From Bacteroidota bacterium (GTDB taxonomy: Bacteria > Bacteroidota > Bacteroidia > Chitinophagales > LD1): a DNA stretch of 64,000 nucleotides. The position numbers were made by a program, and so were the translations under genes. The DNA is taken from contig JAFDYN010000022.1 in NCBI GenBank assembly GCA_018267385.1, forward strand, positions 1 through 64,000. Direction: 5' to 3'. Below, piece by piece: positions 26,157 through 46,627 of this stretch; position 1 is the stretch's first letter; the number at the start of each line of letters is the position of its first letter. The notes beneath the pieces were generated by a model, which was not told where the DNA came from, searched no databases, and was given only the letters and a program-made list of their open reading frames with translations.

Positions 26157-28169
<2,013 letters not shown>

Positions 28170-28420: not shown

Positions 28421-31400
28421 TTATTTATCGGTCTTCACCAGCTTCGCCACATAGCGGCTCTGGCCGGTCACTTCTATGGTATAGACGCCTGTAGACAGGC
28501 CAGAGGTAGGGATCAGCAGTTGCTTCCTGCCCTGCACATCGGCAGCAGGCATATCCAGTGCCAGCCTGCCCATCATATCGTAGGCGCGGACCTGTACCTT
28601 GTCCTCCGTGATACCGGAGAGGTCCAGTGTGGCATTGCCCTGTGTAGGGTTAGGATATAAATTCAGCGCACCAGCAGTGACCTCTTTGATGCCATTAGGA
28701 TCATAGATCGTATTGAGCGTCGTATTGGTAGCCACCGGCGTATTGAAGTCAAAATAGATATTAGCCTGCTCATTGATCACATTACCAGGTACCAGGTTCT
28801 TCTTTTGCTTGAGCGTAAAGGCAGCAAACCCCTGGCTACCTAGCCGGCTCACGCTGCTATCTACCAGATTGATATTGTCAAAACGGATAGTGAGCATTCG
28901 TGATGCATTGGCAGAGATATCAGTCACTGTGTGGCTGGCCCCGATAAACTGGAAAGTGGACAGGTCCAGATTGTTATCTATTGGCAGTTTCAGCGTCACG
29001 TAGGTGGCAGGATAGGTACCTGTATTCTGAAAGTGTACCACATACCTCAGCGTAGTGTCTGTCGTAGTAGTGATGTAGCCCGGACTGCCGGCGCCTTTCG
29101 GCAGCACATCTACATAGTTAGGGTCATATGACCCCACCACGAGGCCCTGTACATCTTCGTAGTTATTGAAGGTATCGATATCATTGACAATAGGGTAGAC
29201 GGTATCTGAGTTATTCAGGATGTGGCCTATAGGAAGCGGGGCCGGTATGTCAAAATACAGGTCTATCTGGTCGGTGCTCGTAGCGCTCAGCGAAGGGCGG
29301 CTCCAGCGGAGTGTGCCTGTCACAGGATCATAGCTGTCAGGAGCCGGAGAGGCCGAGTGCAAGTTGATATCCAGTGCGTGTTTGTACACTACATCCGGGC
29401 CCAGCATGATATTGCCCAGGTTGCGCACGATCAGCCTGCTGTGCTGTGTGAAGCCATGTACCGGCGGAGTGTATGGTATACACGTGAGTGTCAGGTCTCT
29501 GGCAGTATCGGGCTGGTTAAAGAAGTCATTGGAGGTGCTGCTCTGACCTGCTGCGAGGGTGAGTGTAGGAGGTGTAGCAGGACAAGCCAGCGTGAAATTG
29601 ACCGGGGGAGCCTCGTATACGGTATAGGTACCAGGAGGCAGGGTAAACTGGTAATGGCCGTTCTGACTCCACTGGTAGCCGCCGCCAGGCAGGCAGCTGA
29701 CCCACACATTGTTCAGGTATGTGAACTGGGTATTGCAGTTTCGCTGATCATCTTCTATGATGTCACCTGCTATGATCGCTGCACATGGTGCCGTAGAGGC
29801 ATAGCCTATGTGGAATGTGCGATAGGCGCTACAGCCATTGGCATCACTCACATAGACTGAGTAGTCACCTGTGAGCAGCCCCGTGGCCACACCACCGGTG
29901 CCGATAGAGTAGCTATACGGCGGCGTCCCTCCTGATGCCACAGCCGTCACACTACCATCTGCCGTATAGATACAGCTCGCAGAGACAGGCGATACAGAGA
30001 GCGATATCGGACTGATAGAGTGCACATAGGTGCTGGAGCTGCTGTGGCAGCCTGCGTTGTCAGTCACGCTGCAAGTGTAGTATCCCTCCTGTGTCAGATT
30101 GGAGATGCTACTGGCAGTAGCGCTATTATTCCACAAAAGTGTATAGGGGCCTGTACCGCCTGTCACTACAGCGCTGGCGCTGCCTGGCGTACCGCCACAG
30201 TGTGCATCCACGTGAGAGGTACTGATAGACAGGTTGGTATTGAATCCTACCTGTGCAGATTGGTTCTGAAAGCAGCCCTGGGCGTCTACCACATTTACTA
30301 CATAATAGCCGCCATTGAGGGCTGTGGCCGTGGCCGTGGTCTGTGGTGGGTAGGTAGTCCAGGAGTAGCTGTATGGTGCTGTGCCGCCTGTGGCCACTAC
30401 GGTAGCTGTACCGGTAGGCGAGGTGCAGGAGGTCAGTGTAGTACTGGTAGTCAATACAATAGGAGTGGACTTTTGTACCTGACCGGCACTAGACCCCGTA
30501 CATCCGTTGTGATCGGTAAATGTCACTCCATAATATCCCGCGTTCAAATTAGTAATATGAGCCGTGGTCTGACCGGAGGACCAGGTATAGGTGAATGGCG
30601 AAGTGCCATTCACGGGGCTGATGGTCAGCGTTCCGTTTCCATCGTTACAGTGCTCCGCCGTTGTATTGACCTGAGAGGTGAGGCTGATGGCCTGAGTGAT
30701 GTAGCCATACCCCTGTACAGTACAGCCTATCGCGTCTGTCACAGTCACAGTAGCGTATCCGGCAGAGAGGTTGCTGGCGGTAGCTGTGGTGCTGCCATTA
30801 CTCCAGAGGTAGGTGTAGGGGCTGGTGCCATTGCTGGGTGCTGCTGTCGCAGTACCATTGCGGCAGTTGGCGGGAGTGGTATTGATATTAGGATTGATAT
30901 TAGATACCTGATACATACTGCCTGAGTCAGAAGCCAGCGCAGTACAGCCGGTAGATACCTCAGTCACAGTACACTGATAGTGGCTACCTACCGGTACATT
31001 ATAGATACTGTCAGTGGTCTCTCCGGTACTCCAGAGGTAGGTCCAGCTGCCTGAGCTGCCGCCATTATTGTAGGCATATACTCTTTCAGAGCCTAGAGTG
31101 GAGGGGCATACAGCGGGTATCACATTGATATACCCACTGATCCTGCTATACACATAGGTCGTATAGGGTTGAGTGATATTGGTCAGACCACCGGCATCAC
31201 TCACCACTATCTGATAGTAGCCTTGCGACAGTCCCGTGAAGATATTGGAGGTCTGGGTCACAGGGCCATAGGTCGTGCCATAAGCGCCTGAGATAGTATA
31301 TGTGTAGGGCGCTGTGCCTCCGTATACATATACTTTGGAGATGCCATCGTGGGTACAGGATGCAGTCACAGAGTCCCACACCTGTAGTGTCTGGGCTCTG

Positions 31401-31471
31401 ACGCCTATGGCAGTATTGCTGATGATGGCTATCAGCAATATCCTGAGCAAGGGAGGCAAAAAGTTTTTCAT
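28421..31471 (-). CDS. T9SS cargo with SprB repeats and type A sorting domain
   Basis: 1016-aa secreted surface protein. Signal peptide (1-27, ending GVRAQ). About seven SprB-like repeats to residue 560, each with a Cys-Gly/Asn-rich start, GGTxPYxYxW and AGYYxVxVTDxxGC. Then a region (about 560-690) with CLPGGGYQWSQNGHYQFTLP and a tail domain with YDPNYVDVLPKG and LRYVVHFQNTGTYPATYV, typical of the conserved-repeat (DUF11/DUF7619-like) module that precedes sorting domains. The last 80 residues (LNLYPNPTQGNATLDL, YDMMGRLALDM, STGVYTIEV) are a T9SS type A sorting domain. Adhesion or matrix function is inferred from architecture only. Confidence 0.9.
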   Translation of the reverse strand: MKNFLPPLLRILLIAIISNTAIGVRAQTLQVWDSVTASCTHDGISKVYVYGGTAPYTYTISGAYGTTYGPVTQTSNIFTGLSQGYYQIVVSDAGGLTNITQPYTTYVYSRISGYINVIPAVCPSTLGSERVYAYNNGGSSGSWTYLWSTGETTDSIYNVPVGSHYQCTVTEVSTGCTALASDSGSMYQVSNINPNINTTPANCRNGTATAAPSNGTSPYTYLWSNGSTTATASNLSAGYATVTVTDAIGCTVQGYGYITQAISLTSQVNTTAEHCNDGNGTLTISPVNGTSPFTYTWSSGQTTAHITNLNAGYYGVTFTDHNGCTGSSAGQVQKSTPIVLTTSTTLTSCTSPTGTATVVATGGTAPYSYSWTTYPPQTTATATALNGGYYVVNVVDAQGCFQNQSAQVGFNTNLSISTSHVDAHCGGTPGSASAVVTGGTGPYTLLWNNSATASSISNLTQEGYYTCSVTDNAGCHSSSSTYVHSISPISLSVSPVSASCIYTADGSVTAVASGGTPPYSYSIGTGGVATGLLTGDYSVYVSDANGCSAYRTFHIGYASTAPCAAIIAGDIIEDDQRNCNTQFTYLNNVWVSCLPGGGYQWSQNGHYQFTLPPGTYTVYEAPPVNFTLACPATPPTLTLAAGQSSTSNDFFNQPDTARDLTLTCIPYTPPVHGFTQHSRLIVRNLGNIMLGPDVVYKHALDINLHSASPAPDSYDPVTGTLRWSRPSLSATSTDQIDLYFDIPAPLPIGHILNNSDTVYPIVNDIDTFNNYEDVQGLVVGSYDPNYVDVLPKGAGSPGYITTTTDTTLRYVVHFQNTGTYPATYVTLKLPIDNNLDLSTFQFIGASHTVTDISANASRMLTIRFDNINLVDSSVSRLGSQGFAAFTLKQKKNLVPGNVINEQANIYFDFNTPVATNTTLNTIYDPNGIKEVTAGALNLYPNPTQGNATLDLSGITEDKVQVRAYDMMGRLALDMPAADVQGRKQLLIPTSGLSTGVYTIEVTGQSRYVAKLVKTDK

Positions 31472-31790: not shown

Positions 31791-34700
31791 ATGAAGTTGA
31801 AAAGTATACTCTTTTCTGCAATCTGCTTTTTTGCCCTATACTCAGCTGTCGCCCAGACAGTGAACCTACGTGTCAACATCACCGGAGTAGAGCGAACGAA
31901 CTACAATGACTGTAGCGCCTGTGGTAATCCAGATCCTACCTGGAAAATCACTGTCACAGACAATGCGCCGGGCTCTGTAGTAAACGGGCCCTATTGCTTT
32001 CACTATAACGAAGACCCCAATACTTTTGAGTCTTTGGGTACATTCAACGTATGGAACGTGACCAATAGCGCGGCTACCACATTCACCATGGGCCTGAATG
32101 ACGCCTTTGAAAAGAACTGTAGCAGCGGCAATGATTGTGATTATGAATCTTACAATTTCTTCCGTTGCTTCCCATCAGTATATGGTGACGCCAACCGCTG
32201 CAACAATACAAACCTAGCAGTGATCAACTTCATGGACTCCTCACCATGCCAGCTGCACTCAGGCGTGTCTCCATGGTGTGGCAACTATCGCTTCTACTAC
32301 AGCTTCACCTGGTCATTCAACTATGCTCCCACTATCACCACACAGCCTACTGCATTTCAGGGCTGTATAGGTACACCGACCACCCTGCAGGTAGCGGTGA
32401 ATAATGACCCGCACGGCTGGACCCTCGGCCAAAACTACCAGTGGCAGGTATCGAGCAATACTTCATGCCCGGGCTCAAACTGGACCAATGTAGTAGGCGC
32501 TAACAGCTCCAGCTTCACACCGCCTCAGACAGGCGGCACACGCCTCTACCGTGTACTGGTCACGAGCAACTGCAGCGCAAACTTCAATACCAATACTACC
32601 ACGTCAAACTGCGTAGCCGTGACCTACAATCCCGTGGGTGGCTCTGGAGACCCGGTACCACCTATAGTCTCTGGTATATGCGGATCTACCGTACTACCCG
32701 GCTCCACGCACACGCTCAATATCCTGACCCCTCCTACAGTAGGAGCGCTGGTCGGAGCCACGGGCTACAACTGGACCGCCACCGGCGGCTCACCGACCAC
32801 CGGTTCTACTTCTACCTTTACATGGACTGCACCTGTCAGCCCGGGTTCGTATAGTATCAACCTTACGTATCTGACAGCCTGCCCGCCCAATGTCTCTGCC
32901 AATACATGCGTGGTGATAGTCGGTTCGCCTACGTGCGACTTTGCATACATCGCTCCTACGGGCAAGGACTCAGTCTTTGCCGGTGGCCCGGATGTACCGT
33001 ATAAATCTATAGCCTATGCACTCACGCAGCTGGGTGGCCGTACCAAGATCCGGCTCGCAGTAGGTACATATAATGAAACAGTACCGCTCAATATCCAGAA
33101 TAACCTCGTTTTTGATGGCGGCTATGTGATCAATAGTGGCATCTGGACCAAGACAAACTCTGATAGCACTTATATCATCTGCTCAGGCAGTGAGGTGATC
33201 AATGGTGACGTGGCGCACCGTATAGGTTTCAAGTCAAACGGCTCGGACAACTGGGAGCTGCAGGACCTCGTGATCAAAACCACTGATATAAATCAAAGGA
33301 CTACCAATGGCGAAGGATACTCTAACTATGGTGTCCTGGCATACAACAACTCTACAAACTTTAAAATAGTACGTACCAAGGTATATGCGGGCGCAGCCTC
33401 TACAGGCACATCAGGTACGACTCCATCAGGCGCCGGTGGCGCAGGTGGCCACGGTAATGGCGGCGCAGGTGGCGCAGGTAGTACCAATCGGTGCGGATGC
33501 AGTGGCAATAGTCCCGGTACTGCGGGTGGGGCTGGCAATAACGGCGCTGGCGGCGGCGGCGGCGGCGGTACAGGATGCGGCGGTGGCTGCAATACTGTAG
33601 GCTGCAACGCCAGTTCGGGCACGGGCAGCGGAGGTAGCACCGGTACAGCTGGTGGCAATGCTGCCCTCAGCTATGTGGCAGGCGCCAGGCCAGCTTCACC
33701 ATCTTTCTCTGCTCCATATTATATACCATCTGGTCAGGCTGCCAATGGTAGCAATGGTTTCGGCGGCGGCGGTGGTGGTGGCGGCGGCGGCGGCGACATA
33801 GGCACCTGCTGTACTTGCGGTTGCGGCGGCGGATCTCCTGACGGTGGCCGTGGTGGCAATGGTGGTGATGGTGGTATAGGAGGTAGTGGTGGTTTCGGTG
33901 GTGGCGGCTCTTTTGCCATCTACGCCAGCGGAGCTTCTACTACAGGTACGATTATCACATCAGCTATACTGCCGGGCTCAGCCGGTCTCGGTGGCAACGG
34001 CGCTGCCGGTCAGCCGGGCTCTGCAGCTCAGGGTGGCTCGCCGGGTACTGACCACGGCGGCTGTGACGGTGGCCGTGGCGGTGACGGTGGCAACGGTGGT
34101 GCCGGTGGCTCAGGTGGCCGCGGTCAGGATGGTGCTAATGGACTTTCTCAGGACATCGTGACTGTCAATGGCGCTTTCATCAGCGGCTCGTCTACATCCG
34201 TACCAAACAACTATATCGTAGGTGTAAACTACAATAATGCCAAAGCTTGTATCTACTCTGAGATCACACTGACCAAAAACACCGGTGTGTGGTCCTTCCC
34301 GGGTGCGCTGAGCCTGGAGAATGATACCAGGGACCTGCCCGCAGGATCGCCGCTCTCGTCATACAGCGCCAGCTCCAGTCCGGTAGTAGTATATACTACT
34401 ACTCCCGATGCTGAGATAGACCTCACAGTGAATGGCCTGCAGTACGCCGCCTATCTCAAGATAGCGGCAGACAATCGTCAGAAGCCGGTCATCACTCCGT
34501 CCAGCCATACCATTTGTCTGGATGGTTCTGTTTCGCTCTCGGCTACGCATTGGGGCACAGAGCAGGAGTATGACTGGAGGGTATATCAGGGTGCAAACGT
34601 CAACAGCCCTCTGTATACATCTACGGTGGCCTCGCCTACAGTAGACTTCACCGGATATACGCCGGGTCTCTATATAGTACGCTACAAAGTGCGTGAGAGC

Positions 34701-37700
34701 TGCTGCGGCTGGTCTATACCTATCTATGATACGATCAGGATACTCCCACTGCCGGTACAATTCACTGTGCAGGGCGGAGGCAACTATTGCCCTGGCGGCT
34801 CAGGTGTACCTATCACACTGAGTGGCTCTGAGCCCGGTGTGAAATATGTGGTATACTACAATGGTGCGCCTGTAGATAGCGCTATCGGTACAGGCGCCTC
34901 GCCATTTGTGTTTGCAAACGAAACCCAGGTAGGTATCTATACAGTAGTAGGCTACCGTTTCACTGGCTGCGGTCAGAACATGCTCGGTTTTGTCAATGTG
35001 GGCCTTAGTCCTACACCTACACTCTTTACCGTGCAGGGTGGCGGCAATGCCTGCCCTGGGTCTTCATCCGGTCCGGCCATCTATCTGAGCGGATCACAGC
35101 TCGGTGTCAGCTATCAGCTCTATCTGAATAATACTACTCCGGTGGGCAACCCTGTGCAGGGTACGGGCAACCAGATCCCATTTGGCAATGCCGGTCAGCC
35201 GGGAGTATACACTGTGATCGGTACTTTTATCGCGTCGCCGTATTGCTCGTCTAAGATGACTGACTCTGCAGTGATCACCCTGGTGGTCCTGCCAAATGCT
35301 TATACAGTGACAGGCGGCGGCTCATACTGTACCGGAGACTCGGGCAGGGTGATCGGCCTGTCTAATTCTGACGTGGGCGTCACTTATTCACTCTATACAG
35401 GTGGCGTGCTTGTAGCCGGCCCTATAGCCGGTACCGGCGCTCCGCTCACATTTGGTACATTCACGCTCGCAGGCTCTTATAGTGCCATCGCTACCAATAT
35501 TGCCGGTTGCGATACAGCTATGAATAATTCAGTGATCATTAACCCGCTGCCGGTCCCTGTGATCAGCAGTGTGACATCCAGTGATGTGAGCTGCGTAGGG
35601 GGTACTAATGATACCATCTTGCTCTATGCTGCATCTGCCAATGGCAGCGTGTTTTACTCCATAGATAGCGGTACTTCCTATACCAATACTACAGGTCTCT
35701 TTACATCCTTGCCGGTAGGCAGTTACTATATCGCCGTGCGCGACGATAGTAGTTGCACAGCCAGATTTGCTGCAAATCCGGTGATACTTTCCCAGCCGGC
35801 TTCACCTCTGTCTGTGAGCGCCGTATCTTCGGACATTACCTGTCAGGGCAATGGTGATGGCGCGATCAACCTTCTGGTAGGTGGTGGATGGGGTGCCTAT
35901 ACTTACAGCTGGTCATCCGGACAGTCCGTTTCCTCAGTATCGGCACTGGCAGCCGGCCCGTATGTGGCTACCGTCACAGATGCCAAGGGTTGCCAGGTAG
36001 TAGTACATGATACCATCCATGAGCCTACACCTATATCCGTCGGATCTGTAGTGACTACCAATGTGACCTGTGCCGGTGCCCGCAACGGTAGCGTGCATCT
36101 GAATGGTGTGACCGGTGGCACAGCGCCATATACTTTCCTTTGGTCAAATTTCTCTATCACACAAAATCTCGACAGCCTGATAGGCGGGACTTATTATGTC
36201 ATCATCACTGATGCCAAGGGCTGCCAGCTGAGGGATAGCGGCATTGTACGTGAGGGTCTTCCTATAGCCGTGTCAGATACTTTTGTACCTATATCCTGCA
36301 ATGGAGCCAATGATGCCTCTATCCATATTATAGCATCGGGAGGCTCGGGCAGCTATTCTTATACATGGTCGCCATCGGGATCCAATTCACCTGATAACAC
36401 TAACCTCGGACCTAACACCTACAGTGTCACAGTGTCTGATGCCAATGGCTGCTCAGCAGCTACAGCTGTCACCATCGTAAATCCTCCTGCGCTTACGCTT
36501 TCACACGTCTTTACCAATCCGACCTGCAACTCTGCGGGCAATGGTTCGATCAGTATGATCCCGACGGGTGGCACACCGGGGTATACATACCAGTGGGCGG
36601 GCGGCACCTTCTCTGGCCCTATAGCCAATAACGTATCTGCAGGTACCTATTATATCACCGTGACAGATGCGCATGGATGTACTGCACGTGACTCAGTCAC
36701 GATCACTGATCCGCAGCCTATGTACATCAGCGGTACGCCAAAGAATGTGACCTGCAATGGTGACCAGGATGGCTATGTGATAGCTACCGGCTACGGCGGC
36801 ACATTGCCATATAGCTACCAGTGGTACTATGACAGCCTGACGGGCAACCCGGGACCTATTACCAAGGATATCTTCCAGCTATCGGGTGGGGACTATTACC
36901 TCGTCATCACTGATGCCAATAACTGTACTGTATCTTATCATGCCGTGATCAAAGAAGCTGACACCCTCAGACTTTCTCTGGTCAAAACAGATGCTACATG
37001 CCAGAATGCAAACTCAGGCTCTGTAGCGGCTATCGTGACAGGTGGCGTAAAACCTTATGAATTCCTCTGGAGCAACTTTGTCACTGATTCTCTCCAGGTA
37101 GGTATACCGGGCGGATCGTACGGAGTGCAGGTCACAGACTCCAATGGATGCCATGTCACAAAGACGATATTGGTAGATGGTCAGGCTAGCCCGATGACTG
37201 TGAATACTGCTATCAACAATCCTACCTGCAACGACGGGACCAACGGATTTATATCCCTGGATGTACTGGGCGGTACGCAGCCGTACACCTACTCGTGGAG
37301 CACCTCACCGCCTCAGACCGGCAATGTCGCCTCCAATCTGATCGGGGGTACCTATTACGCTACCGTCACAGATAGCAAGGGCTGTCAGGTACTCGATACC
37401 GCTACACTCGTCACACCGGCGGCTATCTCAGCCAGTACTGCTATCGGCGGTGCTACCTGTGTGAGTGCAGCAGATGGCTATGTCGTGATCAGTGTGACAG
37501 GAGGCAATGCTCCATACAGCTATCAGTTGGGCAATTTTGTCCAGAGCAGCGATACCTTCCGCAACCTCACTGTGGGTCAATATACACTGATCATAAGGGA
37601 CGTAAATGGTTGTGAAGGATCTACAGCGCTTACTGTAGCTGCGCCGGGTTATTTCACAGTCGACCTGACTGCAGATCCATATTATATCCTGGCTGGTGAG

Positions 37701-38219
37701 CAGGTCCAGCTGACTGCTACAGCCGCTACAGATACGGCACCATCTCAGATCAGGTATATCTGGAATCCGCTTGATTCGCTCAACTTCCAGGGCTGCACAG
37801 ACTCCAGCAACTGTAATGATCCGATAGCCACGCCGCATGTGACACGCACCTATGTGGTCACTGCGGTCAATGCCCGCGGCTGCATTGTCACAGATACGGT
37901 GCTTGTCACCGTCAGTGACCATCCTTCGGCTTTCATCCCATCTGCCTTTACGCCAAATGGTGATGGACGCAATGACAATTTTGAATTTGATATCCTCGGT
38001 GCCAAATCCGCTAACGTCAATATATGGAACCGATGGGGTGAAAGGGTATTCAGCAACCCTACCCAGCTCAATGGTATAGGCGTGGCAGGTAATACTACGT
38101 GGGATGGCACATTCCGGGGCAAAAAGGCGCAATTTGACTCCTATATCTATCAGCTGGATGTGCTCTATTCTGACGGTCACAGAGAAACGATATCGGGTAC
38201 CGTCACTGTGATGCAATAG
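31791..38219 (+). CDS. Giant T9SS surface protein with Gly-rich segment and SprB repeats
   Basis: 2142-aa secreted protein. Order: signal peptide (1-22, YSAVAQ); a Cys-containing N-terminal domain (23-175); two Ig/PKD-like domains (about 180-380); a parallel-beta-helix-like stretch (about 385-540; RTKIRLAVGTYNETVPL); a Gly-rich segment (about 540-786) with runs up to 11 Gly and Cys clusters (NRCGCSG, TGCGGGCN, GTCCTCGCGGG); a linker; three Ig-like repeats starting TVQGGGNYCPG / TVQGGGNACPG / TVTGGGSYCTG (about 985-1255); nine SprB repeats; a PKD-like domain; and a C-terminal type B sorting domain (FIPSAFTPNGDGRNDNF, IWNRWGERVF). The C-terminal 900 residues are paralogous to the next gene. Likely an adhesin or filament, by analogy with SprB (inference). 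Confidence 0.9.
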   Translation: MKLKSILFSAICFFALYSAVAQTVNLRVNITGVERTNYNDCSACGNPDPTWKITVTDNAPGSVVNGPYCFHYNEDPNTFESLGTFNVWNVTNSAATTFTMGLNDAFEKNCSSGNDCDYESYNFFRCFPSVYGDANRCNNTNLAVINFMDSSPCQLHSGVSPWCGNYRFYYSFTWSFNYAPTITTQPTAFQGCIGTPTTLQVAVNNDPHGWTLGQNYQWQVSSNTSCPGSNWTNVVGANSSSFTPPQTGGTRLYRVLVTSNCSANFNTNTTTSNCVAVTYNPVGGSGDPVPPIVSGICGSTVLPGSTHTLNILTPPTVGALVGATGYNWTATGGSPTTGSTSTFTWTAPVSPGSYSINLTYLTACPPNVSANTCVVIVGSPTCDFAYIAPTGKDSVFAGGPDVPYKSIAYALTQLGGRTKIRLAVGTYNETVPLNIQNNLVFDGGYVINSGIWTKTNSDSTYIICSGSEVINGDVAHRIGFKSNGSDNWELQDLVIKTTDINQRTTNGEGYSNYGVLAYNNSTNFKIVRTKVYAGAASTGTSGTTPSGAGGAGGHGNGGAGGAGSTNRCGCSGNSPGTAGGAGNNGAGGGGGGGTGCGGGCNTVGCNASSGTGSGGSTGTAGGNAALSYVAGARPASPSFSAPYYIPSGQAANGSNGFGGGGGGGGGGGDIGTCCTCGCGGGSPDGGRGGNGGDGGIGGSGGFGGGGSFAIYASGASTTGTIITSAILPGSAGLGGNGAAGQPGSAAQGGSPGTDHGGCDGGRGGDGGNGGAGGSGGRGQDGANGLSQDIVTVNGAFISGSSTSVPNNYIVGVNYNNAKACIYSEITLTKNTGVWSFPGALSLENDTRDLPAGSPLSSYSASSSPVVVYTTTPDAEIDLTVNGLQYAAYLKIAADNRQKPVITPSSHTICLDGSVSLSATHWGTEQEYDWRVYQGANVNSPLYTSTVASPTVDFTGYTPGLYIVRYKVRESCCGWSIPIYDTIRILPLPVQFTVQGGGNYCPGGSGVPITLSGSEPGVKYVVYYNGAPVDSAIGTGASPFVFANETQVGIYTVVGYRFTGCGQNMLGFVNVGLSPTPTLFTVQGGGNACPGSSSGPAIYLSGSQLGVSYQLYLNNTTPVGNPVQGTGNQIPFGNAGQPGVYTVIGTFIASPYCSSKMTDSAVITLVVLPNAYTVTGGGSYCTGDSGRVIGLSNSDVGVTYSLYTGGVLVAGPIAGTGAPLTFGTFTLAGSYSAIATNIAGCDTAMNNSVIINPLPVPVISSVTSSDVSCVGGTNDTILLYAASANGSVFYSIDSGTSYTNTTGLFTSLPVGSYYIAVRDDSSCTARFAANPVILSQPASPLSVSAVSSDITCQGNGDGAINLLVGGGWGAYTYSWSSGQSVSSVSALAAGPYVATVTDAKGCQVVVHDTIHEPTPISVGSVVTTNVTCAGARNGSVHLNGVTGGTAPYTFLWSNFSITQNLDSLIGGTYYVIITDAKGCQLRDSGIVREGLPIAVSDTFVPISCNGANDASIHIIASGGSGSYSYTWSPSGSNSPDNTNLGPNTYSVTVSDANGCSAATAVTIVNPPALTLSHVFTNPTCNSAGNGSISMIPTGGTPGYTYQWAGGTFSGPIANNVSAGTYYITVTDAHGCTARDSVTITDPQPMYISGTPKNVTCNGDQDGYVIATGYGGTLPYSYQWYYDSLTGNPGPITKDIFQLSGGDYYLVITDANNCTVSYHAVIKEADTLRLSLVKTDATCQNANSGSVAAIVTGGVKPYEFLWSNFVTDSLQVGIPGGSYGVQVTDSNGCHVTKTILVDGQASPMTVNTAINNPTCNDGTNGFISLDVLGGTQPYTYSWSTSPPQTGNVASNLIGGTYYATVTDSKGCQVLDTATLVTPAAISASTAIGGATCVSAADGYVVISVTGGNAPYSYQLGNFVQSSDTFRNLTVGQYTLIIRDVNGCEGSTALTVAAPGYFTVDLTADPYYILAGEQVQLTATAATDTAPSQIRYIWNPLDSLNFQGCTDSSNCNDPIATPHVTRTYVVTAVNARGCIVTDTVLVTVSDHPSAFIPSAFTPNGDGRNDNFEFDILGAKSANVNIWNRWGERVFSNPTQLNGIGVAGNTTWDGTFRGKKAQFDSYIYQLDVLYSDGHRETISGTVTVMQ

Positions 38220-38267
38220 GATAGTAACCTTGGGCTGTCTTTGGGACGCGACACAACTTTAATCCTC

Positions 38268-38304
38268 ATACCCCTGATTTTCATTGAATCAGGGGTATTT
38301 TTTT
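38268..38304 (+). terminator. Terminator between the two giant surface protein genes
   Basis: 12-bp perfect stem ATACCCCTGATT / AATCAGGGGTAT, 7-base loop, T-run. The following gene therefore needs its own promoter. Confidence 0.9.
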
Positions 38305-38336
38305 GAGGAAAAAGTGATTATAAACAATCCAATGTT

Positions 38337-38344
38337 TATATTTG
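38337..38344 (+). promoter_or_regulatory. -7 box of the 2754-aa surface protein gene
   Basis: TATATTTG followed by AGGCAAA; matches the box of the upstream paralogue. No TTTG at normal spacing. Confidence 0.55.
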
Positions 38345-38362
38345 AGGCAAAACCCGATTTCA

Positions 38363-41300
38363 ATGAAGAAAATCTCAACCCATTTTCGTCAGGCACTTCT
38401 ATCTCTATTCCTTTCTGTTTCATTAGTCTCTATGGTATCCGCGCAGTGCGTACTGCAGGGTACTATCTCTGAGCCTGCATGCGGATCCTTTAATACTACA
38501 TCCAATGTAGGTGGCATGCAGGAGTGGAATATGAGTTCTACTATAGGTGGAGATTATACTGTGAGCATTTCCAGCGGATCCAACGCTAATGGTGCGTATA
38601 GTGTTTCCCCTGCATCATTTACGGCTACAGGCAGCAGTACTCCAGTAGATATACTCGCTGGCGGCACATGTAGCTGGTCAGCAGGGGGTACCTCCGCCGT
38701 GCTCACCTATACGCGTATAGGATATACCAATACGACCAGCAATGCTACCATGTGCCAGGGTACTACCCGGAGCCTCACAGTATCACCCGCACCTTTTACT
38801 GCCGGTACATGGAGTGTGATACCGGGTACAGGTAACGGATCTATCAGCGGCACTACTTTTACAGCTACTACACCGGGCACTGTCACTATCCGATATGCCA
38901 AAGGTGGTTGCAATTCGGATGTTTCTTTCTCCATAGATGCAGCTCCTACTACAGCTACCGTAGGTGGCACACAGTCTGTATGCGGTCTGGTCAGCAATGG
39001 TCTGGGCGGCAATACTCCTACCACAGGTACAGGTACATGGACCAAAACAAGCGGTCCGGGTACGGTCACTTTTAGCAATGCAAATACGGGCAATGCGACT
39101 GCTACGGTCTCAGCTTATGGTACCTACACCTTCCAGTGGAGTATAGCAAATGGTGTTTGCTCGCCTAGTACGGCATCAGTCACCGTCACCTACTACCAGG
39201 CGCCGACCACAGCTACTGTGGGTGCTACTCAGAATATTTGCGGCTCCCTCACCACGGCCTCACTCGGTGGCAATACCCCTGCTGTAGGTACGGGCACCTG
39301 GACACAACTGTCCGGTCCGGGTACTACCACATTCAGTGCGGTCAACTCGGGCTCCTCTACAGCTACAGCATCAGTCACCGGCACTTATGTCTATACCTGG
39401 ACGATCGCCAATGGCGTATGTACCCCTAGCTCGGCTAATGTCACAGTAAACTATTATGCTACACCTACCACTGCTACCGTAGGTGGCACACAAAACCTCT
39501 GCGGTACATTGACCAGTGGCAATCTGGGTGGTAACTCTCCGGCAGTAGGCACAGGCGCATGGAGCCAGACCTCCGGCCCTGGTACCACCACATTCAGCAA
39601 TCCGGCATCACCTTCGGCTTCTGCCACAGCATCAGTACCTGGCAGCTATACCTATACATGGACGATTTCAAACGGCTCTTGTACTCCTAGTACAGCCGAT
39701 GTGATAGTCAATTTCTATGCTACTCCTCCGGTAGCATCTGTAGCAGCCTCACCACTCAGTGCTTGCGGCTCTCTGACATCCCCTGCGCTGGGCGGCAATG
39801 CAGCGGCACCCGGCACGGGCACCTGGACTCAAACATCCGGTCCTGGCACTACCACTTTCAGCAATCCAAACTCTGAGTCTTCTACAGCCACTGCATCTGT
39901 GCTGGGTACATATGTATATACCTGGACCATCACAAATGGCAACTGTGCACCTACCTCAGCAAATGTCACCGTCACATATTACACGGCACCGACTACGGCT
40001 ACAGTAGGTCCAAATCAAGCCGTATGCTCCCTGACCAGCAATGCCCTCGGCGGCAATACCCCGTCCGTAGGCACGGGCACATGGACTCAGGCTGCAGGAC
40101 CAGGCGTGACCTTCTTTAGCAATGCAAACTCCGGTAGCTCTACAGCATCAGTGTCTGTGCAGGGTACCTACATATTTACGTGGACCATTGCAAACGGCCC
40201 ATGTACCAGCTCGGCCAATGATACGGTAAGCTTCTACTCAAATCCTACCATCGCTACTGTCGGTGCAGATCAGAAGCTTTGCGGCACGCTGACCAGCAAT
40301 GCCCTCGGTGGCAATACGCCAGCCATAGGCGCTGGTACCTGGTCTCAGATAGCTGGTCCCGGTACTACTACATTCAGCAATCCTAATGCCGGCTCCTCTA
40401 CCGCTACCGTCTCTGCTTATGGTGTATATACTTATGAGTGGACCATTTCAAATGGTACCTGTACACCTACTACTGCAGATGTATCTGTATACTACATTCC
40501 ATCTCCTACAGGCGGCAGTATAGCAAACGCTGCTTTCTGCTCGGCAGCAGGATCTGCCAGCATATCTGTGACAGGCGTGTCCAATGCCACACAATATAGC
40601 TGGGCCCTGCCTGCAGGCCTTACCGGGTCGTCTACTGCCAGTACGATCACTATCGGCGGCACCACGCCAGGCACCTATACTGTCACTGTCACGCCATCTG
40701 ATGTGCAGTACGGTGTGACATGTACCGGATCACCTATCACCGGTACTGTCCGGATACTGTCACAGCCGGTCATAGACTCTGTCAATGCAGGCACAGTATC
40801 GTGCTACGGCGGCAATGACGATACGATACGTATCTACGGTCATACTTCAAACGGAACCCTGTTCTACTCTATAGATAATGGTGTTACATTCTCTAATTCG
40901 ACAGGCGTGTTTACCGGCCAGATAGCGGGCAGCTACAATCTTCAGGTACGTGATGATAGCACATGTACCACATCATACACCGGCAATCCTGTCATCGTCA
41001 CTCAGCCTACTGCCCTTCAGATCACTATCGCTTCTTACAGCAATGTAAGGTGCAATGGAGACTCTACCGGGTTTATCAATATCTCTGTATCCGGTGCCAC
41101 ACCGCCATACACTTTTGCATGGAATAATGGTTCTACATCGCAGAATATCATTGATCTGGGCGCAGGATCTTATACCGTGACAGTCACAGATGCAAAGGGA
41201 TGCCAGCAGCAGCTCACGCAGGCCATCACATCGCCGCCGGTCATCACAGCCAGCGCCACAGGTACTAATATCAGCTGCTATGGTGCCAATGACGGCACAG

Positions 41301-44300
41301 CCTCTGTCACTGCCAGCGGTGGTGTAGGCACACTCACCTATACCTGGTCCAGTGGTAGCAGCTCGCCATCACTCACTGGCCTCGCAGCAGCGCTGTATTC
41401 TGTGACGGTAAAGGATGCTAACGGATGCCAGGTGGTCAGTTCATACACGGTGACTGAGCCGGCTCCGCTCCGCCTTTCCCTCTCCAGTACCAATGTGACT
41501 TGCTACGGCAATGGCAATGGTACCGTGACTGCAAACGTGACAGGTGGCACAGGAGCATATACATATACATGGTCTCCGGCAGTGAGCACTACAGCTACCG
41601 TGACCAATGCCGGTCCTGGCACATATGCGCTGACTGTATCTGATGTCAATAACTGTAGCGCAGTCGATAGTGCTGTAGTGACACAGCCTATATCCGGCCT
41701 GTCTGTATCATCTATAGTCACACCGGTGCGCTGCACAGGTGAGGCTAATGGAGCTATCCAGCTGCTGCCTAGCGGTGGTGTGGGTGGATACACTTATGCA
41801 TGGGCAGGCGGCCAGTCGCTGCAGATCATCAGCGGACTCGCAGCGGGTATCTATACCGCTACTGTCACTGACGGAAACGGATGCCAGGTGGTCGTATCTG
41901 ATACGCTGGTCAATCCTACTCCTATCACCTCCGGCGTGACCGGCACCAGTGCCAGCTGCGTAGGTGCAGGCGGTGGCTCTGCTACCCTCACAGTGAGCGG
42001 TGGTGCAGCACCATATACATTCCTTTGGTCTGATCTCGAGACGACTCAAAATATCAGCAACCTCAGCGGTGGCACTTACCGTGTCATCATCACCGATGCT
42101 AATGGCTGCCAGCATAGCGACAGCGTGATCATCACTCAGCCGCAGGCACTGGTCGCTACATTCAGCGTGACGAATGCTACCTGCAATGGCGCAGCAAATG
42201 GTACAGTGACAGTCAATGTAACAGGCGGCACTGGTGCCGGTACCTATACATATGCCTGGACACCATCAGGTAGCGTGACCAATAGCGTATCTCCGGCGTC
42301 ACCGGGCACCTATGTGGTGACAGTCACAGATGGTAATGGCTGCACGCTGGTAGACAGCGCTGCAGTGACACAGCCACAGGCGCTGTCCACTATTGTTTCC
42401 GTGACTAATGTGCAGTGCTACGGTGGCAATACAGGCTCCGCTACCGTGAGCGTACTCGGCGGTACTGGTTCTTACAGCTATACATGGTCACCAAATGTAA
42501 GTACCAGCGCTACAGCGCTCAATCTCACCAGTGGCATCTACAATGTCACTGTCACAGATGGCAATGGCTGTAATACTACGACATCTGTCACCATCACCCA
42601 GCCTGCCGCAGCGGTAGCGCTGAGCACTATCGTGACTGATATCACTTGTCATAATGCTAACGATGGAGCCATCTCTACGCAGGTAAGTGGCGGCTCTGGC
42701 TCTTATACTTATGCGTGGACGGGTGTGGTTGCTACCACTCCTTCAGTCAGCGGCCTCTCCGCAGGCACCTATACCGTGACCGTGACTGACGCAAGCGGCT
42801 GTACAGCTACCGGTACTGGCACTATCACAAATCCATCAGACATCAGCTCGACTACCAGCGGTACTAACCTGCTTTGCGCAGGTGCAGCTAACGGCACAGC
42901 CTCTGTGACTACCGTATCTGGCGGTACAGGTCCTTATACTTACCTCTGGTCAAACTTTGCAGCGACTCAGACCATCAGCGGCCTGAGCGGTGGCCTGTAT
43001 CGTGTGGTCATCACAGATGCACATGGCTGCCAGCACAGGGATAGCGTGTTTGTGACCGAGCCTCAGCCACTGTCTCTGTCTATGACCTTTACCAGCCCTG
43101 GCTGTGCCGGCGGCTCTAACGGCAGCATCAGCGCAGCAGTATCAGGCGGTACAGGTACATATACTTATACATGGTCTCCGAATGTCAGTTCCGGCCCTAC
43201 AGCTACAGGTCTGGGTGCAGGCACTTATCACCTGACGGTGGCCGATGCCAATGGCTGCTCTATCTCTGATAGTGTAGTGATACCACAGCCTGCCGCAGTA
43301 CTGACAGCCAGCGTACTGGTCACAGATATGACCTGCCATGATGCTGATAACGGCTCTATCACCACGCTGGTGAGCGGTGGCTCTGGATCATATACCTACG
43401 CATGGACAGGCTCAGCCGCTACTACGGCTACTATCAGTGGCCTCTCTGCCGGCACCTACACAGTGACCGTAAGTGATGTAGGTGGCTGTACGGCTACTGC
43501 CTCAGGCACTATCACAAATCCATCAGACATCAGCTCGACTACCAGCGGTACCAACCTGCTTTGCGCAGGTGCAGCTAACGGCACAGCCTCTGTGACTACC
43601 GTATCTGGCGGTACAGGTCCTTATACTTACCTCTGGTCAAACTTTGCAGCGACTCAGACCATCAGCGGCCTGAGCGGCGGCCTGTATCGCGTGGTCATCA
43701 CAGATGCACATGGCTGCCAGCACAGGGATAGCGTATTTGTGACCGAGCCTCAGCCCCTGTCTCTGTCTATGACCTTTACCAGTCCTGGCTGTGCCGGCGG
43801 CTCTAACGGCAGCATCAGTGCAGCGGTATCAGGCGGTACCGGTACATATACTTACACCTGGTCTCCGAATGTCAGCTCCGGCCCTACAGCTACAGGTCTG
43901 GGTGCAGGCACTTATCACCTGACCGTGGCCGATGCCAATGGCTGCTCTATCTCTGATAGTGTAGTGATACCACAGCCTGCCGCAGTACTGACAGCCAGCG
44001 TACTGGTCACAGACATGACCTGCCATGATGCTGATAACGGCTCTATCACCACGCTGGTGAGCGGTGGCTCAGGATCATATACCTACGCATGGACAGGCTC
44101 AGCCGCCACTACGGCTACTATCAGTGGCCTCTCTGCCGGCACCTACACAGTGACCGTAAGTGATGTAGGTGGCTGTACGGCTACTGCCTCAGGCACTATC
44201 ACAAATCCATCAGCTATCACATCTACTAATTCAGGTACTAATGTGACCTGCGCTGGTGCGGCTAACGGTACAGCCTCTGTGACTACTGTATCAGGTGGTA

Positions 44301-46627
44301 CAGGTCCTTATACTTACCTCTGGTCAAACTTTGCTGCTACGCAGTCGATCAGTGGCCTGAGTGGCGGCACCTACCGCGTGGTCATCACAGACGCACATGG
44401 CTGTGAGCACAGGGATAGCGTGATCGTCGCAGAGCCTCAGCCTCTGGTGGCCAGCCTCAGCGTGACTCAGATCACCTGCCACGGACAGAACAACGGCTCT
44501 ATCACAGTAGCTACTACAGGTGGTACCGGTACTGTCGCATTTGTCTGGACTCCGGGCGGCCAGACTACTCCTACTATATCAAACCTCTCTGCCGGTACGT
44601 ACAGCGTAGTAGCGACAGATGCTAATGGCTGCACAGCAAATGGATCTGCTACCATAGTGAATCCGGGTGTGCTTACTTCAGTCAGCGTCGTCACAAATCC
44701 TACTTGCAACACTACTACAGGTACGGTCGGCCTCATCGTGAATGGAGGTACGCAGCCATATACCTATACATGGTCAGGTGCCCTCGCAGGATCTGGTCAG
44801 ACCGCTACTAGCGTGTCACCCGGCAGCTACAATGTCACTATCACTGATGCCCATGGCTGTACCGCGCTGGACTCAGCTCAGGTCCTCGCTCCGGTACCTA
44901 TCTATATCAGTGGCATCATATCTGGCGTGAGCTGCCACGGCAATTCGGATGGATCTGCTATCATTACGGTATACGGTGGCAATCAGCCATACGCCTACCA
45001 GTGGCATTTTGATAGCCTGGCAGGAGCACTCGGCCCTATCACCAAAGATTGGATACAGCTCCCGGGTGGTGACTACTATCTGGCTGTGACAGATGCCAAT
45101 AACTGCTCGGCTTCTTTCCACGCTACGATACATGAGGCGGATTCGCTGAAGCTCACTCTCGCAGAGACAGATGTGACTTGCAATGGACAGAACAATGGTA
45201 CACTGCACGCTTCTCCGGCCGGAGGTACTACTCCATACCACTTCCTCTGGAATAATTTTGTGACCGACTCTGTACAGTCCGGTGTACCGGCAGGTAGCTA
45301 CGGTGTGGTGGTCACAGATTCTAATGGCTGCCAGCAGACTAAGACCATCACTGTGAGCCAGCCTACTGCACTCACAGGCAGGATCACTGCGGCCAACCCT
45401 GCATGTAGTGGCCAGGCCACCGGCACTGCGACCATAGCGGTCAGTGGTGGCACCGGTGCCTATAGCTACACATGGAGTACTGCGCCGGCGCAGAATACAG
45501 CTACGGCTACCGGCCTCCAGGCAGGAGCCTACTACGTGACAGTGAGTGATGGCAATGGCTGCTCACTCACAGACAGTACGACGCTCACAGCACCTCAGGC
45601 ACTGGCTGTCAATACGGCTATCAGCAATCCTACCTGTGCAGATGGTAGTAATGGTTTCGTATCTCTGGACGTACGCCAGGGTACGGCGCCATATACCTAC
45701 AGCTGGAATACCTCACCGGCACAAACCGGCAACGTAGCCTCCGGGCTCACCTCAGGTACGTATATAGCCACTATCACTGACGCAGGTGGCTGTCAGCTGC
45801 TCGATACTGCTGTGGTCGTGGCACCGGCTCCTATCACTATCACGCTGACCGGCCTGGGTAGCACTACCTGCCTCAACTCGGCGGATGGCTACGTGGTAGT
45901 GAGTGTCACAGGTGGCCTGGCGCCATATATCTATCAGATAGGCAGCGTCACTCAGACCTCAGATACATTCAGAAATCTGACGCCGGGTGCCTACAACCTG
46001 TCAGTAAGGGATGCTAACACATGCGAAGGAACTACTAACTGGACCATCGCTTCATCCAGCAACTTCACTGTAGACCTGACGGTAGATCACGATGTGATAC
46101 TGGCCGGTGAGACCATACAGCTGGCTGCTACACCTACATCTGACACTACGGTCACAGGCTATACCTGGTTTACGCAGGACTCATCGCTGAACTTCAGCGC
46201 CTGCGGCAATCCGGCCAACTGTCCGAATCCTACAGCTATACCACAGGCATCGTATACATACGTGGTGCAGGCTGCCAATGCCCGTGGCTGTCTCGCTACA
46301 GATACGGTCCATGTCACTGTGAGCAATCAGCCTTCTGCATTCATGCCATCTGCCTTTACGCCTAACGGCGACGGCAATAATGACCGGTTCCAGATGGATA
46401 TCCTCGGCGCCAAAGACCTGCATGTACAGGTATGGGATCGCTGGGGCGAAAAGGTATACGACAACCCTACCCAGAAGAATGGCGTAGACCAGTCTTCTAC
46501 AGAGGGATGGGATGGCTCATTCCGTGGCAAGAAGGTAGAGTTTGGCACCTATATCTATCAGATAGATGTCAACTATCTGAATGGTCAGACCAAAACGATG
46601 TCAGGCACTATCACGGTGATGCCATAG
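38363..46627 (+). CDS. Giant T9SS surface protein with Ig-like and about 23 SprB repeats
   Basis: 2754-aa secreted protein, the largest gene here. Signal peptide MKKISTHFRQALL...SMVSAQ; ATG 38363 preferred to a TTG at 38342. N-terminal region to about 190; six Ig-like repeats of about 85 aa (about 195-710), each PTTATVG..LCG...LGGN.PAVGTGTW...SGPGTTTFSN...YTWTI.NG; one PKD-like domain; then about 23 SprB repeats of 75-80 aa (CxGxxxG, GGTGxYTYxW, LSAGTYxVTVTDxxGC); a PKD-like domain; and a type B sorting domain (FMPSAFTPNGDGNNDRF, VWDRWGEKVYDNP). Three SprB repeats are duplicated as a 687-bp unit. Very rich in Thr, Ser and Gly, so a good candidate for O-glycosylation. No PorP/SprF-like partner follows. 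Confidence 0.92.
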   Translation: MKKISTHFRQALLSLFLSVSLVSMVSAQCVLQGTISEPACGSFNTTSNVGGMQEWNMSSTIGGDYTVSISSGSNANGAYSVSPASFTATGSSTPVDILAGGTCSWSAGGTSAVLTYTRIGYTNTTSNATMCQGTTRSLTVSPAPFTAGTWSVIPGTGNGSISGTTFTATTPGTVTIRYAKGGCNSDVSFSIDAAPTTATVGGTQSVCGLVSNGLGGNTPTTGTGTWTKTSGPGTVTFSNANTGNATATVSAYGTYTFQWSIANGVCSPSTASVTVTYYQAPTTATVGATQNICGSLTTASLGGNTPAVGTGTWTQLSGPGTTTFSAVNSGSSTATASVTGTYVYTWTIANGVCTPSSANVTVNYYATPTTATVGGTQNLCGTLTSGNLGGNSPAVGTGAWSQTSGPGTTTFSNPASPSASATASVPGSYTYTWTISNGSCTPSTADVIVNFYATPPVASVAASPLSACGSLTSPALGGNAAAPGTGTWTQTSGPGTTTFSNPNSESSTATASVLGTYVYTWTITNGNCAPTSANVTVTYYTAPTTATVGPNQAVCSLTSNALGGNTPSVGTGTWTQAAGPGVTFFSNANSGSSTASVSVQGTYIFTWTIANGPCTSSANDTVSFYSNPTIATVGADQKLCGTLTSNALGGNTPAIGAGTWSQIAGPGTTTFSNPNAGSSTATVSAYGVYTYEWTISNGTCTPTTADVSVYYIPSPTGGSIANAAFCSAAGSASISVTGVSNATQYSWALPAGLTGSSTASTITIGGTTPGTYTVTVTPSDVQYGVTCTGSPITGTVRILSQPVIDSVNAGTVSCYGGNDDTIRIYGHTSNGTLFYSIDNGVTFSNSTGVFTGQIAGSYNLQVRDDSTCTTSYTGNPVIVTQPTALQITIASYSNVRCNGDSTGFINISVSGATPPYTFAWNNGSTSQNIIDLGAGSYTVTVTDAKGCQQQLTQAITSPPVITASATGTNISCYGANDGTASVTASGGVGTLTYTWSSGSSSPSLTGLAAALYSVTVKDANGCQVVSSYTVTEPAPLRLSLSSTNVTCYGNGNGTVTANVTGGTGAYTYTWSPAVSTTATVTNAGPGTYALTVSDVNNCSAVDSAVVTQPISGLSVSSIVTPVRCTGEANGAIQLLPSGGVGGYTYAWAGGQSLQIISGLAAGIYTATVTDGNGCQVVVSDTLVNPTPITSGVTGTSASCVGAGGGSATLTVSGGAAPYTFLWSDLETTQNISNLSGGTYRVIITDANGCQHSDSVIITQPQALVATFSVTNATCNGAANGTVTVNVTGGTGAGTYTYAWTPSGSVTNSVSPASPGTYVVTVTDGNGCTLVDSAAVTQPQALSTIVSVTNVQCYGGNTGSATVSVLGGTGSYSYTWSPNVSTSATALNLTSGIYNVTVTDGNGCNTTTSVTITQPAAAVALSTIVTDITCHNANDGAISTQVSGGSGSYTYAWTGVVATTPSVSGLSAGTYTVTVTDASGCTATGTGTITNPSDISSTTSGTNLLCAGAANGTASVTTVSGGTGPYTYLWSNFAATQTISGLSGGLYRVVITDAHGCQHRDSVFVTEPQPLSLSMTFTSPGCAGGSNGSISAAVSGGTGTYTYTWSPNVSSGPTATGLGAGTYHLTVADANGCSISDSVVIPQPAAVLTASVLVTDMTCHDADNGSITTLVSGGSGSYTYAWTGSAATTATISGLSAGTYTVTVSDVGGCTATASGTITNPSDISSTTSGTNLLCAGAANGTASVTTVSGGTGPYTYLWSNFAATQTISGLSGGLYRVVITDAHGCQHRDSVFVTEPQPLSLSMTFTSPGCAGGSNGSISAAVSGGTGTYTYTWSPNVSSGPTATGLGAGTYHLTVADANGCSISDSVVIPQPAAVLTASVLVTDMTCHDADNGSITTLVSGGSGSYTYAWTGSAATTATISGLSAGTYTVTVSDVGGCTATASGTITNPSAITSTNSGTNVTCAGAANGTASVTTVSGGTGPYTYLWSNFAATQSISGLSGGTYRVVITDAHGCEHRDSVIVAEPQPLVASLSVTQITCHGQNNGSITVATTGGTGTVAFVWTPGGQTTPTISNLSAGTYSVVATDANGCTANGSATIVNPGVLTSVSVVTNPTCNTTTGTVGLIVNGGTQPYTYTWSGALAGSGQTATSVSPGSYNVTITDAHGCTALDSAQVLAPVPIYISGIISGVSCHGNSDGSAIITVYGGNQPYAYQWHFDSLAGALGPITKDWIQLPGGDYYLAVTDANNCSASFHATIHEADSLKLTLAETDVTCNGQNNGTLHASPAGGTTPYHFLWNNFVTDSVQSGVPAGSYGVVVTDSNGCQQTKTITVSQPTALTGRITAANPACSGQATGTATIAVSGGTGAYSYTWSTAPAQNTATATGLQAGAYYVTVSDGNGCSLTDSTTLTAPQALAVNTAISNPTCADGSNGFVSLDVRQGTAPYTYSWNTSPAQTGNVASGLTSGTYIATITDAGGCQLLDTAVVVAPAPITITLTGLGSTTCLNSADGYVVVSVTGGLAPYIYQIGSVTQTSDTFRNLTPGAYNLSVRDANTCEGTTNWTIASSSNFTVDLTVDHDVILAGETIQLAATPTSDTTVTGYTWFTQDSSLNFSACGNPANCPNPTAIPQASYTYVVQAANARGCLATDTVHVTVSNQPSAFMPSAFTPNGDGNNDRFQMDILGAKDLHVQVWDRWGEKVYDNPTQKNGVDQSSTEGWDGSFRGKKVEFGTYIYQIDVNYLNGQTKTMSGTITVMP
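42818..44191 (+). repeat. 687-bp in-frame tandem duplication (three SprB repeats)
   Basis: Copies 42818-43504 and 43505-44191. The copies encode the same 229 residues as far as I can read, while about a dozen third-position base differences are visible. A diverged start of a third copy follows at 44192. Confidence 0.9.

Follow-up and report, generated by a model that had tools for sequence, protein, structure and literature searches.

Tandem giant T9SS type-B surface proteins beside gyrB: evidence for a modular family of putative adhesins with recombining heads and stalks

In Bacteroidota, type-B proteins of the T9SS are adhesins, either known or predicted, whose C-terminal domain (CTD) can set the cell location. 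In Helicobacter pylori, the Bab outer-membrane adhesins form a group of paralogues that swap sequence by gene conversion. Laboratory exchange of the CTD in Flavobacterium johnsoniae (F. johnsoniae) sends a substrate to the destination of the new CTD, and orphan type-B substrates of that organism can share one shuttle (PMC12618676). SprF is known to bind SprB (PMC9143113). Shuffling of modules between adhesin paralogues has already been described for badA (PMC8859334) and for the gingipain/HagA group (PMC5266723), while no report of head/stalk exchange in giant proteins of the SprB or T9SS type-B kind was found in the open literature. The pair of genes described here is, in our judgement, best explained overall by a modular family of T9SS adhesins in which heads recombine with units of stalk and anchor, a reading that we consider probable.

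The window, i.e. the whole stretch of DNA analysed, comprises 64,000 nt (G000:C13:1-64000) of a 4.5-Mb genome in 27 contigs. Its genus is denoted g1, with g2, g3 and g4 as other genera. Bacteroidetes bacterium UBA1941, SZAS-58 and SZAS-59, the sister records with names, are assemblies from metagenomes, and many of the genomes are fragmented. Two giant genes, A and B, follow each other on the + strand downstream of gyrB (Table 1). The initial annotation of this DNA had read them as tandem giant genes with a common C-terminal block and unlike heads, which agrees with the presence of two + strand open reading frames whose tails are collinear and 60% identical over the C-terminal ~340 aa (342 aa aligned). 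Both A and B show the domain anatomy of T9SS type-B CTD substrates and of SprB-repeat proteins. Pfam PF13573 marks, with several repeats above its gathering score, eight SprB stretches in A (E 1.4e-70) and 22 in B (E 3e-174), and a custom profile marks nine and 23, respectively. The sorting domains of A and B score 43.1 and 52.4 bits for CHU_C and 38.9 and 43.4 bits for TIGR04131 (Bac_Flav_CTERM), above the curated cut-offs of 27 bits and 35 bits.

Table 1 Features of the gyrB-side locus in window coordinates
Feature	Position	Strand	Basis
gyrB, syntenic landmark of the array	26157..28136	-	GyrB recognised from translated sequence
Shared leader/-7 element of A, TATATTTGAGACAAA	31767..31781	+	Genome-wide pattern search
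Gene A, giant T9SS type-B surface protein, 2142 aa	31791..38219	+	SprB, CHU_C and TIGR04131 matches
A head, aa 23-1226: N-terminal and Ig-like part, then Gly-rich region	31857..35468	+	55-60% identical relatives in g2/g3
A head/stalk junction (inferred)	35469..35546	+	Segment scan
A stalk, nine SprB repeats	35547..37655	+	Pfam and custom profile
A CHU_C/type-B T9SS sorting domain	37935..38207	+	Pfam, NCBIfam
Shared leader/-7 element of B, TATATTTGAGGCAAA	38337..38351	+	Genome-wide pattern search
Gene B, giant T9SS type-B surface protein, 2754 aa, ATG start 38363	38363..46627	+	SprB, CHU_C and TIGR04131 matches
B head, six ~87-aa Ig/PKD-like repeats (K319L-like PKD)	38432..40750	+	Domain search
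B stalk, 23 SprB repeats	40751..46066	+	Pfam and custom profile
Tandem of a 687-bp unit of three repeats, ~2.9 copies	42458..44446	+	DNA identity in 100-nt windows, repeat pairing
B CHU_C/type-B T9SS sorting domain	46343..46618	+	Pfam, NCBIfam

The N-terminal halves are as unlike as first described. Glycine makes up 41% of A residues 538-790, with 10 Cys in the Gly-rich part of the head, as compared to the six Ig/PKD-like repeats of B. No Pfam family was found in the window's own copy of the A head. A PDB profile search with this head returned no more than two weak matches at E 0.03, in each case to a subunit named NDUCA; these are attributed to chance, and no convincing solved relative emerged. 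Structure prediction for A aa 375-1000 gave a pLDDT of 29 on a shallow alignment of four sequences. The same residues (window 32913-34790) constitute a Gly- and Cys-rich head module that Pfam does not recognise, and relatives of this module sit in many otherwise unlike giant proteins throughout the order. Among the proteins compared, clear relatives of the B head are confined to g1.

The tandem A-B pair beside gyrB is kept in G005 and also, across a contig break, in G004. In G001 the A head is ~99% identical and the starts of A and B are unchanged, with B interrupted by contig ends. An assembly chimera is unlikely, as this architecture recurs in G001, G004 and G005, and in pieces in G002. The pair seems to be missing in at least one species of g1, because G006 (same genus, 91% complete) yielded neither an A-head match nor a close g1-type tail match. 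In other genera of the family the gyrB locus holds arrays of three to four giant SprB genes (G014, G011). Between gyrB and A, the window encodes a third protein with SprB repeats (28421-31471, - strand), which combines DUF7619 with a type-A T9SS tail; it is divergent from A and present also in G004 and G005.

Outside the pair, the next paralogues of the A and B tails in the genome reach 36-38% identity. The best monotone path of A repeats along B reached a score of 2110, which none of 2000 shuffles of the A repeat order attained (maximum 1997), and matched repeats share 55% identity as compared to 34% for other repeat pairs. A repeat tree including the sister-species copies groups A1 with B1, A2 with B5, A5 with B18, A6 with B19, A7 with B20, A8 with B22 and A9 with B23, where A6-A9 join their partners with 98-99 support. 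A3 and A4 are without a one-to-one partner, the former lying beside the expanded B6/B10/B13/B16 type and the latter near B3, and B21 has no partner in A. The initial annotation had aligned the last nine A repeats in order with the last repeats of B and had expected corresponding repeats to pair in a tree. Their order holds and the repeat and sorting-domain motifs quoted there are present; the placement on the end of the B stalk has to be given up, since A1 pairs with B1 and A2 with B5, and a common block restricted to the last nine repeats of B is ruled out by the repeat tree. Pairing was recovered for seven of the nine A repeats, with A3 and A4 as the exceptions. Judged by these pairings, the block common to A and B is the entire stalk from first to last repeat, in the middle of which B grew or, alternatively, A shrank. 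Repeat counts in sister species change by whole repeats (9, 9 and 11 in A; 23 and 26 in B). The 687-bp tandem in the B stalk shows 95-100% DNA identity in stretches, up to 100% per 100-nt window, and represents a recent stalk lengthening; repeat numbers differ in the sister species. At the DNA level the two tails agree at only 67%, so that no current exchange between A and B can be seen in the window's species.

The affinities of the A head are different from those of its stalk. The head (~1,200 aa) has relatives of 55-60% identity over its length in g2 and g3, and the tails of these A-headed genes share only 37-39% identity with the A tail, against 60% for B. IQ-TREE was used to build a tail tree from 70 proteins and 338 columns. 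In it, a single clade (100/98) unites the A with the B tails of g1, and its sister (97/99) is G009_17, a g4 protein that is not A-headed. The A-headed tails of g2 and g3 fall into a separate clade together with differently headed genes. In the head tree, g1 stays a clade. Forcing all A-headed tails into one clade resulted in a dlnL of 289 (AU p 1.8e-7), and a placement of the g1 A tails within the class-1 group cost 60 log units (p 6.6e-4), where the p-values are to be read as strong rather than exact because the tests were picked after the tail tree had been seen; the groups were named from head similarity and not from the tail tree. These two tests rule out plain vertical descent of A.

A segment scan located the head-to-stalk switch in A at aa ~1227-1252, just ahead of the first SprB repeat. 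Up to this point the match is to the A-headed genes of g2 and g3 (63 bits for aa 1180-1252, against 26 for B), and for all nine A repeats the B type is the best match among the groups compared. The CHU_C domain is conserved everywhere and is by itself without discriminating power. Repeat 1 belongs to a "cap" type that many of these proteins carry directly behind the head, irrespective of the kind of head, and is a plausible homology arm for recombination. At the level of sequence, A is a true chimera whose head and stalk have different phylogenetic affinities, and head/stalk recombination in this gene family is well supported by the comparisons above. The association of an A head with a B-type stalk could be older than the g1 stem, because a module in the N-terminal part of G009_17 is weakly A-like (29% over 236 aa).

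Head and tail part company in further members of the family. In g2 and g3, class-2 heads are 43-49% identical, and their tails are not one clade (p 1.7e-6). Genes 2 and 3 of G008, which are adjacent, have heads of 79% identity over ~540 aa, falling to 17-35% at aa ~520, while the tails fall into separate clades (p 0.0046). The A-headed genes outside g1 are also not one tail clade (p 0.0016). Together with the A-headed set as a whole (p 1.8e-7), head and stalk trees are in significant conflict by AU test in each of these comparisons, with the same reservation on the exactness of the p-values. Other head classes of the family are decoupled from their stalks likewise, and A is not a single accident. 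The two G008 genes (L079:1916-18967) provide a case of an independent head copy between neighbours.

A match between the -7 regions of A and B, reported in the initial annotation, is real and stronger than claimed. The 15-nt pattern TATATTTGARRCAAA has exactly two occurrences in the 4.5-Mb genome, one at A and one at B (Table 1), which rules out a generic promoter as the source of the match; its core TANNTTTG by itself is common. Up to the start codon the two leaders are alike at 20 of 24 nt, and this leader is kept in sister species. Upstream of the -7 element, no clear similarity between A and B was found. The start of B is assigned to the ATG, as the TTG at 38342 falls within the -7 box. 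An element unique to A and B may point to a dedicated factor for their co-regulation, and the two genes could be co-expressed through the common leader.

Two explanations dispense with a past exchange or make it a continuous process. SprB repeats and CHU_C domains might be alike in A and B merely as common building blocks of the genome, in which more than 100 stretches match one or the other. The identity of the A and B tails (60%, against 36-38% for the next paralogues), the collinearity above all 2000 shuffles and the 98-99 support for the pairing of A6-A9 make this scarcely credible, and it is refuted by the repeat tree and the tail tree. Ongoing concerted evolution would have the A and B stalks repeatedly homogenised within each species. 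The A-type and B-type tails of G002 pair together (88/52), as such a process would predict; however, orthology of the A tails including that of G002 is not rejected (p 0.41), and A and B tails are cleanly apart in G000, G004 and G005. Repeated homogenisation is accordingly regarded as improbable.

The data prove chimerism and not its direction, and two histories fit, both of which make A a chimera. The initial annotation had proposed duplication followed by exchange of the tip. The exchange between head and stalk is upheld by the conflicting affinities of the two parts of A, whereas the proposed order and direction are those of one of the two histories. According to it, a whole gene (leader, head, stalk and CTD) was duplicated in tandem, and one head was then replaced by an A head from a class-1-tailed gene. 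In its favour, leader and stalk are both common and flank unlike heads. The leader pattern, unique to the two genes genome-wide and kept in sister species, points in the same direction, and the G008_3 gene demonstrates that copying of a head onto a neighbour's stalk is feasible. Still, the gyrB-side array of G011 likewise starts with an A head, so that a moved head must land back in the first slot, and with no clear similarity upstream of the -7 element the short leader could have stayed alike through co-regulation. Duplication with head replacement is thus seen as a real possibility, albeit short of an even chance. In the other history, the gyrB-adjacent gene A stayed in place and its stalk and CTD were overwritten from the downstream neighbour B, either by gene conversion or by unequal crossover at the first repeat. 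In favour of stalk capture, the A head in the gyrB slot of G011, where it belongs to the first gene of the array, sits on a class-1 tail, and the A-headed gene beside gyrB in g1 has a B-type tail. Class-1 tails are also found in the gyrB slot of G014, G024 and G009 (g4), and the B-type stalk repeats of A run up to the junction. The A head is an old element, and a single stalk replacement explains its placement in G011 more simply. The common leader, however, needs a second event or convergence. We rate stalk capture as being about as probable as all other courses combined.

Returning to the modular family as the preferred overall reading, A and B would belong to a group of adhesins exported by the T9SS, with several of the genes arranged in tandem next to gyrB. 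The exposed N-terminal head is the probable ligand-binding tip of a putative adhesin, which the SprB-repeat stalk would hold off the cell, and the type-B CTD would direct T9SS export followed by handover to a PorP/SprF-type shuttle or anchor. Recombination at the head/stalk junction, just before the conserved cap repeat, would place varied tips on one stalk and anchor, presumably through gene conversion or unequal crossing-over between neighbours. In g1, an old A head would have joined a stalk and sorting domain of the B type ahead of the divergence of the sampled species, and the A head would now be displayed on a stalk and anchor of the same kind as those of the B head. Stalk length was probably altered later by gain or loss of repeat units, as suggested by the 687-bp tandem in B.

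The T9SS parts SprA and GldM are encoded in the genome, as are 18 PorP/SprF genes, none of them on the window's contig. Because of the latter, A and B resemble "orphan" type-B substrates, and a linked PorP/SprF-type gene, as expected of an SprB orthologue, is absent for both. A and B may use the same shuttle. The window also encodes a 995-aa SprB/CHU_C protein with a DUF2341 head (14325-17312), for which a PorP/SprF gene is likewise absent from the contig. A more speculative and rather unlikely proposal is that the gyrB-side array of this uncultured Bacteroidota family serves as a head-display cassette, in which tips are exchanged onto shared stalk and CTD units at a fixed junction before the cap repeat, so that many heads are served by one T9SS shuttle and one leader type. 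The chimeras suggest how bacteria may alter their adhesion targets without rebuilding export and anchoring, and they supply a junction and protein pairs that are open to testing.

In comparison with known systems, the Bartonella badA island (PMC8859334) is a repetitive gene island that likewise codes for giant adhesins of head, stalk and anchor, with arrays of homologous domains reshuffled. However, BadA is a trimeric autotransporter and not a T9SS substrate, and variation there is between strains and includes pseudogenes, whereas here it is between genera and involves intact genes. The rgpA/kgp/hagA group of Porphyromonas gingivalis (PMC5266723) shares with A and B the T9SS, the combinatorial adhesin modules and the recombination of paralogues, but its modules are those of proteases and haemagglutinins rather than of SprB-stalk giants, and the variation there is between strains of one species. 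The Bab proteins of H. pylori differ in being outer-membrane barrel proteins without a T9SS stalk. Also close are SprB and the other type-B CTD adhesins of F. johnsoniae with their PorP/SprF shuttles (PMC12618676, PMC9143113), which resemble A and B as giant repeat proteins with SprB repeats, a type-B CTD and the T9SS parts, and in having heads and CTDs that are separable modules. The locus described here differs from the F. johnsoniae SprB system in that there is no PorP/SprF gene on the same contig and in that the swaps are natural: the same head has met different stalk and CTD classes across genera, which amounts to a natural version of the laboratory CTD swap.
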